64,000 nt of DNA from Halotalea alkalilenta (GTDB taxonomy: Bacteria > Pseudomonadota > Gammaproteobacteria > Pseudomonadales > Halomonadaceae). Shown one piece after another: positions 42,058 to 44,417 of this stretch (positions are counted from its first letter, which is position 1; each line of letters begins with the position of its first letter). The notes beneath the pieces are model-generated. The model was not told where the DNA came from. It saw nothing but the letters and a program-made list of their open reading frames with translations, and made no database searches. The stretch covers positions 2,480,001 through 2,544,000 of the forward strand of contig NZ_CP015243.1 of NCBI RefSeq assembly GCF_001648175.1. The letters run 5' to 3'. A program made the translations under genes and the position numbers.

Positions 42058-42086
42058 TTGATAATTGTTAGCATTTAGATTATCTT
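42058..42086 (+). promoter_or_regulatory. Fur-type iron-regulated promoter of the tolQ-tolR-tonB operon
   Basis: TTGATA (42058-42063), a 17-base spacer and TATCTT (42081-42086) form a promoter. Overlapping it, GATAATTGTTAGCATTTAG (42060-42078) matches the 19-base Fur consensus at 12 positions, and GATAAT is mirrored by ATTATC at 42079-42084. Repression by Fur when iron is plentiful is therefore likely. The 200 bases further upstream hold nothing recognisable. Confidence 0.7.
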
Positions 42087-42124
42087 GCGCCCGTTACGTC
42101 GAACGTACATTACAGAGATTGACC

Positions 42125-42829
42125 ATGAATGAAACGGTACCGGTAGAGCACTCGATGTCGATCATCTCGCTGATCATGCAGGCCAGCGGGGTGGTGCAAG
42201 TGGTGATGGCGATCCTGACCCTGTTCTCGATCGTCTCCTGGGTGCTGATCTTCCGTCGCGGCGCTGCCATTCGTCGCGCCCATCGCGAGTTCGAGTCGTT
42301 CGAAACGCGTTTCTGGTCCGGGGTCGATCTCAACGAGCTCTACCGTGAAGTGCCGGAGCAGCCCGAGGGTGCGGCGCATCTGTTCCGCGCAGGGTTTCGT
42401 GAGTTCAACCGGCTGCTGCCGAAATCCCGTGACGACGCATCGGTGCTCGCCGGGGTCGAACGCTCGATGCGCGTGGCGCTCTCGCGCGAAGAGGCGCGTC
42501 TCGGTCAGCACCTGCCGATTCTCGCGTCGATCTCCTCCTCCAGCCCGTACATCGGCCTGTTCGGTACCGTCTGGGGGATCATGGGGTCGTTCCAGTCGCT
42601 CTCCTACGCCCAGCAGGCGACGCTCGCAACCGTCGCTCCCTGGATCGCCGAGGCGCTGGTAGCGACCGCGATGGGGCTGTTCGCGGCGATTCCCGCGGTC
42701 ATCGCATACAACCGCTTCACCTCGACCTCCGAGCGTCTGCTTGGCCGCTACGAGGATTTCGCCGAGGAGTTCTATTCGATCCTCTATCGCAATCTGCACA
42801 GCGGTCGAGTGCGCAAAGAAGCCGCCTGA
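42125..42829 (+). CDS. TolQ/ExbB family proton-channel protein (TolQ-like)
   Basis: A 234-residue inner-membrane subunit of a proton-driven motor. Its sequence follows E. coli TolQ closely: an N-terminal helix (about 17-37), FETRFWSGVDLNELYRE (like FEDKFWSGIELSRLYQE), then SPYIGLFGTVWGIMGSF and WIAEALVATAMGLFAAIPAVIAYNR forming helices 2 and 3. By sequence it is TolQ-like, not ExbB-like. Yet it is followed by tolR and a TonB-type gene, with no tolB or pal, and is preceded by a Fur box. The job is therefore probably to energise TonB-dependent iron uptake. Confidence 0.88.
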   Translation: MNETVPVEHSMSIISLIMQASGVVQVVMAILTLFSIVSWVLIFRRGAAIRRAHREFESFETRFWSGVDLNELYREVPEQPEGAAHLFRAGFREFNRLLPKSRDDASVLAGVERSMRVALSREEARLGQHLPILASISSSSPYIGLFGTVWGIMGSFQSLSYAQQATLATVAPWIAEALVATAMGLFAAIPAVIAYNRFTSTSERLLGRYEDFAEEFYSILYRNLHSGRVRKEAA

Positions 42830-42841
42830 GGAGTAGCCGCC

Positions 42842-43273
42842 ATGTATGGACCCTTCAGCCGGCGCGGCAAGCGCAAGCTTTCCAGCGAGATCAACGTCGT
42901 TCCATTCATCGACGTCATGCTGGTGCTGCTGGTGATCTTCATGATTACCGCGCCAATGATGAACCAGGGTGTGGAAGTCGAGCTGCCGCAGGCCAGCGCC
43001 GAGCCGATCGACAGCGATACGCCGCCGCTGATCGTCTCGGTCGACAGCAACGGCGAGTACTACATGAGCCGTGACGGGGACAACACTCCGGTATCCCTGG
43101 AGAGCCTCGGTGCCCAGGTGCAGAGCGTGCTCGCCGAACAGCCTCAGACACCCGTGATGGTGCGTGGTGATCGCAACGTCTCCTATGGCCAGGTCATCAC
43201 CCTGATGGCGACCCTCCAGAGCGCCGGAGTTCCCAACGTAGGATTGGTCTCCGAGCCAGGCTCTGGCAACTAA
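42842..43273 (+). CDS. TolR/ExbD family protein (TolR-like)
   Basis: A 143-residue protein with one N-terminal membrane helix (about 19-39) bearing the proton-carrying Asp in [19 protein letters not shown] (Asp25), then a periplasmic domain ending VGLVSEPG, like the TolR VGLMTQP. GAGGAG lies 8 bases before the ATG. It sits 12 bases after the tolQ-like gene and 10 before the tonB-like gene, so the three should be co-transcribed. Confidence 0.9.
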
Positions 43274-43283
43274 AGGCACGAGA

Positions 43284-44417
43284 ATGTCCCGTTACCAGCA
43301 ACCAGCCCTGAGCGGCGGTCTCTTCTTCGGCCAGTTCGACGACGCAGAGCGCGCTCAGCCGCGCTTGTTGCTCGCTCCTCTTGGCGCGGAAGTCCCCTCC
43401 GGCATGGTGATCGACACTCGGCTGCCGGATTCGGGGGTACTGGTGAGCGGCATCAGTCCGGCAGTCGATCGTAGCGAGGAAATTTCGCTCGATTGGGTGC
43501 CGGGCGCGAGCGCTGGTGATATCGCAGAGCACCGCGGCGGTGCCAATGGGTGGGGCGCGCCTGCGATCGCCGGAGCGCTGCTGGTTCATGCAAGCGTCGT
43601 CGCACTGATGCTCTGGCAAGGCGCGGCGGAGAACCAGATCGTGGTCGAGCCGCCGAGCGGTGGCGTGATCCATGCCACGATGGTGGAGGATCCCGCAATC
43701 GCCGAGGCCGAAGCGCAGGCCGAGGCCCAGGCCCAGGCGGAAGCTCAAGCTCAAGCCCAGGCGGAAGCTCAAGCCCAAGCGGAAGCTCAAGCCCAAGCGG
43801 AAGCTCAAGCCCAAGCGGAAGCCCAAGCTCAGGCGGAAGCTCAAGCCCAGGCAGAAGCCCAAGCCCAGGCAGAAGCCCAAGCCCAGGCGGAAGCTCAAGC
43901 CCTGGCGGAAGCGCAGGCAAGAGCCCAAGCGCAGGAACAGGCTCGCCAGCAAGCGCAAGCCAGGGCGCAGGAGCAGGCTCGCGCGGCTGAAGCTCAGCGG
44001 CAGGCTCAGCAGGCGGAAGCCGCGGCCCGGGCAGAGGCTGAAGCCGCCGCTCGGGCGCAAGCCGAGGCCGCCGCAAGGGCCCAGGCCGAGGCGGCCGCTC
44101 GCGCCGAGGCGAACCGCGCCGCTGCGGCCCAGGGCAATACGCCTGAGAGACTGGCGTCGCCACCGGCTGCGACCAATCGGGTCGAGCCCAACTATCCCCG
44201 GCTCGCGCTTTCGCGTGGGTTGCAAGGGCGCGTGGTGGTGCGTTTCACTATTCGCCAGGATGGCAGCGTCGATCCCGGTTCGATCAGCGTGGTGAGTTCG
44301 AGCAGCTCGCTGTTCGAGCAGGCGGCGCTGGAGGCGATCGCCAAGTGGCGTTTCCAGCCGCGGCCGCGCCCCGGCATCGTCGAGCAGCCTATCGAGTTCC
44401 GACTGCAGGGACGTTGA
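43284..44417 (+). CDS. tonB: TonB-type energy transducer with TolA-like Ala/Glu/Gln stalk
   Basis: A 377-residue transducer with four parts. Residues 1-90 are an unusually long cytoplasmic region of unknown role. Residues 91-112 form the membrane helix, with His102 in [14 protein letters not shown] aligning to the essential TonB His20. Residues about 134-290 are an Ala/Glu/Gln-rich, helix-prone stalk of AEAQAQ repeats, replacing the Pro-rich TonB spacer and resembling TolA domain II. Residues about 295-377 are a TonB C-terminal domain: [19 protein letters not shown], then [16 protein letters not shown]. It is the third gene of the Fur-controlled operon and probably contacts TonB boxes of outer-membrane receptors. 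Confidence 0.88.
43695..43930 (+). repeat. Tandem repeats encoding the (AEAQAQ)n stalk
   Basis: Many near-identical copies of an 18-bp unit (AAGCTCAAGCCCAAGCGG and variants) lie head to tail and keep the frame. Copy number is likely to vary by slippage, changing stalk length in six-residue steps. They are not spaced like a CRISPR array. Confidence 0.9.

Follow-up and report, generated by a model that had tools for sequence, protein, structure and literature searches.

Two tolQ genes and one tolR: a possible Ton motor of Tol descent in Halotalea alkalilenta

Ton and Tol as parallel machines

In reviews, Ton and Tol appear as two machines side by side, with cross-talk arising via mutation or overexpression in E. 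coli (PMC7391070, PMC11658791). Both papers state that E. coli TolQR is able to drive TonB and that ExbBD is able to drive TolA, and the second of them tells of the laboratory chimeras of E. coli TolA and TonB of Williams-Jones et al. 2023. Split tol loci are described in PMC12204202, either with tolQRAB apart from pal-cpoB or with tolQRA apart from tolB-pal-cpoB. In Helicobacter pylori, according to PMC13367063, there are three separate motor-transducer complexes, each transducer having been co-purified with its own ExbB/ExbD or TolQ/TolR. A literature search over titles and abstract openings found no description of TolQR in an operon with tonB, or of a tol operon without tolR.

We find both arrangements in Halotalea alkalilenta. 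The DNA analysed, hereafter the window, is a stretch of 64,000 nucleotides within a single contig of 4,387,428 bases. Its genome is called G000, its congener G001 and a genome of another genus G017; together with G018 they make up the clade discussed below.

The tolQ-tolR-tonBh operon

The features of the operon, in window positions, are the following; its tolQ is called displaced, the second copy of the genome tol-locus tolQ.

42058..42086, plus strand: sigma-70-like promoter TTGATA-17-TATCTT, a consensus match only, overlapping the Fur-like site
42060..42084, plus strand: Fur-like site GATAAT...ATTATC, 12/19 on the plus strand and 13/19 on the other, supported by its receptor-matrix rank and the alignment with G017
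42125..42829, plus strand: displaced tolQ (TIGR02796, 273 bits; TolQ tree; key residues retained)
42842..43273, plus strand: tolR (TIGR02801, 148 bits; sole PF02472 match in the genome; equivalents of Asp23 and Phe32 retained)
43284..44417, plus strand: tonBh, a transducer of 377 residues whose stalk is of Ala/Glu/Gln type and whose end is that of a TonB (PF03544, 66.9 bits; alignment of five sequences; dN/dS)
43284..43553, plus strand: cytoplasmic extension of tonBh, about 90 residues, present in 5/5 aligned sequences
43557..43616, plus strand: membrane helix of tonBh with a conserved His (residue 102), from the alignment, the helix limits being our own reading
44142..44414, plus strand: TonB C-terminal domain of tonBh (PF03544; tree)
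44460..44484, plus strand: perfect 11-bp inverted repeat 3' of tonBh, read from the sequence, a possible operon end with no T run and not among the sites listed by a terminator scan

The three genes run in the same direction with intergenic gaps of 12 and 10 bases, displaced tolQ extending from the ATG at 42125 to a stop at 42829. A sequence-only reading of the window had held that the first two proteins follow TolQ and TolR, and the family models and trees agree with it. Displaced TolQ passes the cut-off of the tolQ equivalog TIGR02796 (221) and stays below that of the exbB model (143 bits, cut-off 206); the window TolR passes the cut-off of TIGR02801 (127) and reaches at most 92.2 bits with the ExbD models (cut-offs 216 and 153). 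With NF008066 (PRK10801) displaced TolQ scores 231 bits and the tol-locus TolQ of G000 likewise 230, both below the cut-off of 403, and the window TolR scores 114 bits with PRK11024, below 162. Displaced TolQ retains the equivalents of E. coli Ser28, Trp32, Thr145, Thr178 and Pro187, the roles of which are given in PMC7391070 and PMC12215075; both TolQ copies of G000 and G017 have these five residues, which line the path of protons and transducer, and the Asp23 equivalent kept in the window TolR is the proton-binding residue. Between G000 and G001, dN/dS is 0.036 for displaced tolQ and 0.069 for tol-locus tolQ.

Downstream of tonBh, tolA, tolB and pal were not found, again as had been claimed from the letters alone; the genes that follow instead are convergent and, we presume, an opp-type ABC transporter operon. 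In G000 this operon and a dipeptidase-like gene (44489-50823, minus strand) lie between tonBh and xthA; they also stand next to tonBh in G001, and not in G017.

To the third protein the same reading had assigned a TonB C-terminal domain, a membrane helix with the conserved His, a TolA-like stalk and an unusual extension ahead of the helix. The domain is there: PF03544 (TonB_C) matches residues 301-374, and the C-terminal domain groups with TonB2 of the family (95/90), away from TolA, in a tree of 39 rows and 101 columns whose bootstrap had not settled and in which E. coli TonB is a long branch inside the TonB2 group. PF03544 also matches TolA weakly, with 27-34 bits at the tol-locus TolA positions of relatives versus 67-71 for tonBh, so it is the higher score, together with the tree, that supports the TonB assignment; with the tolA_full model tonBh reaches 36 bits, below the cut-off of 59. 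A single His-bearing membrane helix is likewise found, near residues 92-111, with about 90 residues ahead of it. This extension carries a conserved V-x-GI-x-P in the alignment of five sequences and is less unusual than supposed, for the second TonB-type protein of the genome, described below, has one too. The Ala/Glu/Gln stalk is present, its likeness to TolA being one of composition. The SHLS motif retains its His and has Ala in place of the Ser four positions earlier; the 13 family TolA compared likewise have Ala here, E. coli TolA having Ser. A helix model of TolA gives 18-19 bits for tonBh of G000 and G001, 11.9 for that of G017 and 1.6 for P0001. Among 314 ORFs of the window, taken as a null, the top score is 6.1 bits, yet E. 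coli TonB reaches 11.7, and the TonB helix model used for comparison was built from only four sequences. There is only a weak sign that the membrane helix comes from TolA, and helix and stalk together may be TolA-derived.

For the whole of tonBh, dN/dS between G000 and G001 is likewise low (0.043, repeat region included), with 0.16 over the first 92 codons, the extension, and 0.022 over the TonB end. At 43700-43930 the AEAQ-type repeat of the stalk differs in length, the protein having 377 residues in G000 and 369 in G001, and the stalk length varies within the genus. Beyond the clade, in a search of 275 genomes, the best match to tonBh has 52% identity versus 63% in G017; residues 270-377, used as a protein query, brought up 7 proteins, 2 of them close (66% and 61%).

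The reading had also placed the promoter over a 12/19 match to the Fur consensus. Count and overlap both stand, and TTGATA-17-TATCTT is the only sigma-70-like site in 41850-44600 (mean of 0.4 in shuffles). Taken alone, the match is weak, because sites of at least 12/19 in the window (15 on the plus strand and 17 on the minus strand) exceed the roughly 11 in all expected from a Markov model. Three comparisons favour the site. It aligns between G000 and G017 (15/19 on the better strand) where the flanking promoter hardly aligns, and with a matrix built from 8 receptor-promoter sites of the same genome, the tolQ site excluded, it ranks second of about 77,000 positions (the window and L004, the stretch that holds the second tol locus), the G017 site scoring higher still. 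In the third comparison, a site of at least 13/19 was found in 8 of 14 receptor genes, within 510 nt around the open-frame start, and in 38 of 1000 random stretches of the same length; among the other six receptors, L269 does not count as validly tested, because its open frame seems to run well ahead of the probable start codon. Of 19 rows for the 14 receptors, those dropped were L007, L010 and L012, the same receptors as L273, L274 and L275, and L272 and L013, where the ORF picked was on the strand opposite to the receptor. At the tolQR promoter of G018, a genome without tonBh, no Fur-like site was found. The genome of the window has two Fur-family proteins, and the displaced operon is probably under Fur, acting at this predicted site.

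The best matrix score in the window and L004 (24.0) falls elsewhere, at 63132-63150, just upstream of a LuxI-type autoinducer synthase gene (PF00765; 62417-63118, minus strand); a LuxR-type gene is at 61714-62460, plus strand. Iron control of quorum sensing via this site is possible.

A tol locus without tolR, in four genomes

The second locus, in L004, reads ruvB-ybgC-tolQ-tolA-tolB-pal-cpoB, with tolQ directly before tolA. Where the sequence-only reading had looked to a second, canonical tolQRAB-pal cluster, the genome thus offers tolQ, tolA, tolB and pal without tolR, and the complete set does not stand together at one locus in G000. The tol-locus TolQ (L004 8417-9145, minus strand) scores 260 bits with TIGR02796. 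With TolR as the tblastn query, nothing resembling it turned up at E <= 1 within the tol loci of G000, G001, G017 and G018.

Tol-locus TolQ carries an insert in its cytoplasmic loop, about 11 residues long in G000 and G001 and 9 in G017, that is absent from the other TolQ rows compared; the threonines facing the TolR aspartate are retained. The tolA gene of G000 (L004 7315-8442, minus strand) has a frame shift in a C run near its 3' end. G001, G017 and G018 have an uninterrupted tolA. The shift of G000 may be a sequence error or a real change, and Tol may be impaired in the G000 assembly.

Whole-genome searches of G000 returned three MotA_ExbB matches, namely displaced TolQ, the second TolQ and a protein that we take to be MotA-like by its MotB-like neighbour, and one ExbD/TolR match (PF02472), the tolR of the window. 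The ExbBD-TonB set that might have been expected elsewhere did not turn up: in the whole genome neither ExbB nor ExbD was found, nor were motor genes of ExbB2/ExbD2 type. There are 14 matches to TonB-dependent receptors. TonB_C is matched by two proteins, one being tonBh and the other a further protein of TonB type (L006 721-1731; PF03544, 36 bits) with its own extension ahead of the helix. The latter gene lies between gshB- and yqgE-like genes, presumably the gene place of Pseudomonas TonB3, and its product would also depend on the TolQR motor.

The scarcity of tolR is shared by the congener. Among 48 genomes, G000 included, a single ExbD/TolR match was obtained in G000 and G001 and two to five in the 29 other family members; over 275 family genomes a single match occurs in six, which are G000, G001 and four assemblies of 66, 71, 88 and 97% completeness. 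Neighbourhoods were read in 60 stretches around the ExbD/TolR matches of G001-G023. Outside the clade tolR stands in the tol operon, beside tolQ and upstream of tolB, in 20/20 family genomes. Inside it, G001 and G017 repeat the split of G000, with tolQ-tolR-tonBh at one place and tolQ-tolA-tolB at the other. No ExbB or ExbD was found in G001. G017 has an ordinary TonB-ExbB-ExbD locus as well, so the displaced operon is not the sole Ton motor there. In G018 the displaced tolQR is the only TolQR pair, the tol locus reading ruvB-ybgC-(LprI-like gene)-tolA-tolB-pal-cpoB, without tolQ and tolR; a TonB-ExbB-ExbD locus is also present, and no tonBh match was found at E <= 1e-12. Since the displaced tolQR of G018 has neither tonBh nor the Fur-like site, the locus is not tied to TonB everywhere. 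Between ybgC and tolA of G018, where tolQR is missing, lie the LprI-like gene (PF07007) and a short-repeat tract (L241 5472-6830).

The displaced pair of G018 is near xthA and a DEAD-box helicase gene, and these two genes come directly after the operon in G017 and beyond the opp operon and the dipeptidase gene in G000. On its opposite side the operon has a UvrD-like helicase gene in G017 and also, beyond a rhodanese gene, in G000; this gene does not adjoin the locus in G018.

The trees place these copies within the family. A careful tree of 39 TolQ proteins has one clade of displaced copies (G000, G001, G017, G018; 99/95) and one of tol-locus copies (G000, G001, G017; 100/99), which are each other's closest kin (98/89) within the TolQ of Halomonadaceae; tolQ was therefore duplicated once in the ancestor of this clade. 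The window TolR groups with those of G001, G017 and G018 (99), inside family TolR (98) and far from ExbD, in a tree of 74 rows made by a quick method on few columns. The comparison of TolQ with ExbB that the earlier reading had put forward thus sets both proteins within Halomonadaceae TolQ/TolR, not ExbB/ExbD. G000, G001, G017 and G018 also come together in a tree built on TolB, Pal and YbgC (31 rows; 95/99), and a search of the 275 genomes with tol-locus TolQ met only G000, G001 and G017 twice among the matches listed (down to 284 bits). As we read the trees, tolR either moved or was copied, the tol-locus gene disappearing afterwards, and in G018 tol-locus tolQ was lost too; on this sequence record the rewiring in two stages across the four genomes is real.

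One TolR for two machines

What does this motor drive? We read the gene content, the gene trees, the recurring split, the conserved promoter site and the retained key residues as follows. It is fairly probable, in our judgement, that TonB is driven by a duplicated TolQR, itself probably under Fur, and that the same TolR also serves Tol. From the sequences we infer the pairing of the proteins, the proton drive, the response to iron and the energising of receptors. In the ancestor of the clade tolQ, presumably with tolR, would have been copied to a site near xthA, where the copied genes would have come to stand next to a TonB-ended transducer, under a Fur-type promoter; tolR of the tol operon would then have been lost and, in G018, tol-locus tolQ as well. 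A pentamer of displaced TolQ with a dimer of TolR would form the Ton motor, in which protons passing the aspartate of TolR and the ring of threonines in TolQ would set tonBh in motion, and the TonB end of tonBh would pull the plugs of TonB-dependent receptors. The Tol motor would use the same TolR in one of two ways: TolR would join tol-locus TolQ, or the displaced pair as a whole would work on TolA. TolR is expected in the Tol motor too because the tol locus encodes tolQ, tolA, tolB and pal and no tolR. The sequence-only reading had left open a Tol motor recruited to iron uptake or one serving both roles; the latter fits best, because the genome's own tol locus is without tolR. The motor lineage, the TonB end and the failure to find another candidate motor for TonB in the genome agree with the reading, iron uptake and the Fur response being predicted parts of it.

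In its fullest form the proposal is possible, if somewhat short of probable: a single TolR, made from a Fur-controlled operon and working in two TolQ rings, might power both the constriction role of TolA and iron uptake through a transducer with a TolA-like helix and a TonB end. If this is true, iron status would set the supply of a part of the division motor. For the main reading it speaks that G000 and G001 each have one ExbD/TolR match, and that ExbB was not found in them. Against it counts that the TonB-type protein of L006 could serve some of the receptors, although this protein would itself depend on TolQR.

Two other explanations deserve weight. By the first, the TolQR of the window is a dedicated Ton motor driving only its TonB-type transducer, and Tol runs on tol-locus TolQ and TolA, without TolR or with an unrelated partner. 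The union of tolQ, tolR and tonBh in one unit with a Fur-like promoter is consistent with this, as is the divergence of tol-locus TolQ, whose loop insert in G000 and G001 looks as if adapted to a new partner. We nevertheless consider it unlikely: tolQ without TolR is highly atypical for the motor family according to PMC12204202, the threonines opposite the TolR aspartate persist in tol-locus TolQ, and G018 has tolA, tolB and pal with the displaced pair as its only TolQR. This end state of G018, displaced tolQR alone and no tonBh match, speaks in turn for the second explanation, that the TolQR of the window is no more than the Tol motor at a new place, tol-locus TolQ being a leftover and tonBh an accessory rod of minor importance for iron. 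Yet the leftover gene is retained in two genera at a low dN/dS, the Fur-like site accompanies tonBh and is absent in G018, and no other Ton motor was found in G000 and G001, G000 having its 14 receptor matches; we would give the relocated motor equally little credit.

That this is an ordinary ExbB-ExbD-TonB operon merely scoring as TolQR is scarcely credible, for although a Ton locus typically has a TonB gene after its motor genes and ExbB/ExbD models matched below cut-off, the equivalog models and the trees nest both proteins in TolQ/TolR of the host family, far from its ExbB/ExbD branch, and rule the ordinary identity out. An artefact behind the tolR gap, whether assembly error or deletion in a single strain, is just as hard to believe: the frame shift in tolA makes local errors in G000 possible, but the tolQ-tolA junction without tolR recurs in G001 and in the other genus, G017, and its presence in three genomes rules out an assembly gap.

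How, then, does the locus compare with described systems? Like the Tol system of E. coli (PMC7391070 and PMC12215075), it has TolQ and TolR by model, tree and residues, and tolA (shifted in G000), tolB, pal and cpoB are present; unlike it, tolR and a second tolQ stand in another operon with a TonB-type transducer, and tolR is missing from the tol locus. In the split loci described in PMC12204202 the break falls elsewhere, whereas here tolR is separated from tolA.

With ExbB-ExbD-TonB the operon shares the union of motor and TonB genes, the TonB C-terminal domain, the Fur-like promoter and the receptors; it differs in a motor of TolQR descent, in a stalk rich in Ala, Glu and Gln, not Pro, and in that ExbB/ExbD were not found in G000 and G001. 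The Ton loci of other Halomonadaceae are, we presume, of the TtpC-ExbB2-ExbD2-TonB2 type. The C-terminal domains of family TonB2 are the nearest family kin of tonBh outside the clade, with up to 53% identity among the matches listed, whereas in the five examples compared the membrane helix is without His and the stalk Pro-rich, unlike tonBh.

Like the chimeras of Williams-Jones et al. described in PMC11658791, tonBh would join TolA and TonB parts in one transducer; unlike them, the combination would have arisen in nature, be maintained by selection and share an operon with a TolQR motor. As in Helicobacter pylori (PMC13367063), there are several transducers of TonB/TolA type per cell, and in contrast to it transducers here outnumber TolR genes. 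The clade holds natural stages, tolR gone from the tol operon and then tolQ too, plus a natural transducer of mixed make-up, and it makes the choice of rod by such a motor, and whether one part can serve two tasks, open to experiment in organisms not known to be pathogenic. What is known in E. coli as cross-talk between Ton and Tol seems to have been made by evolution the normal state in this clade.
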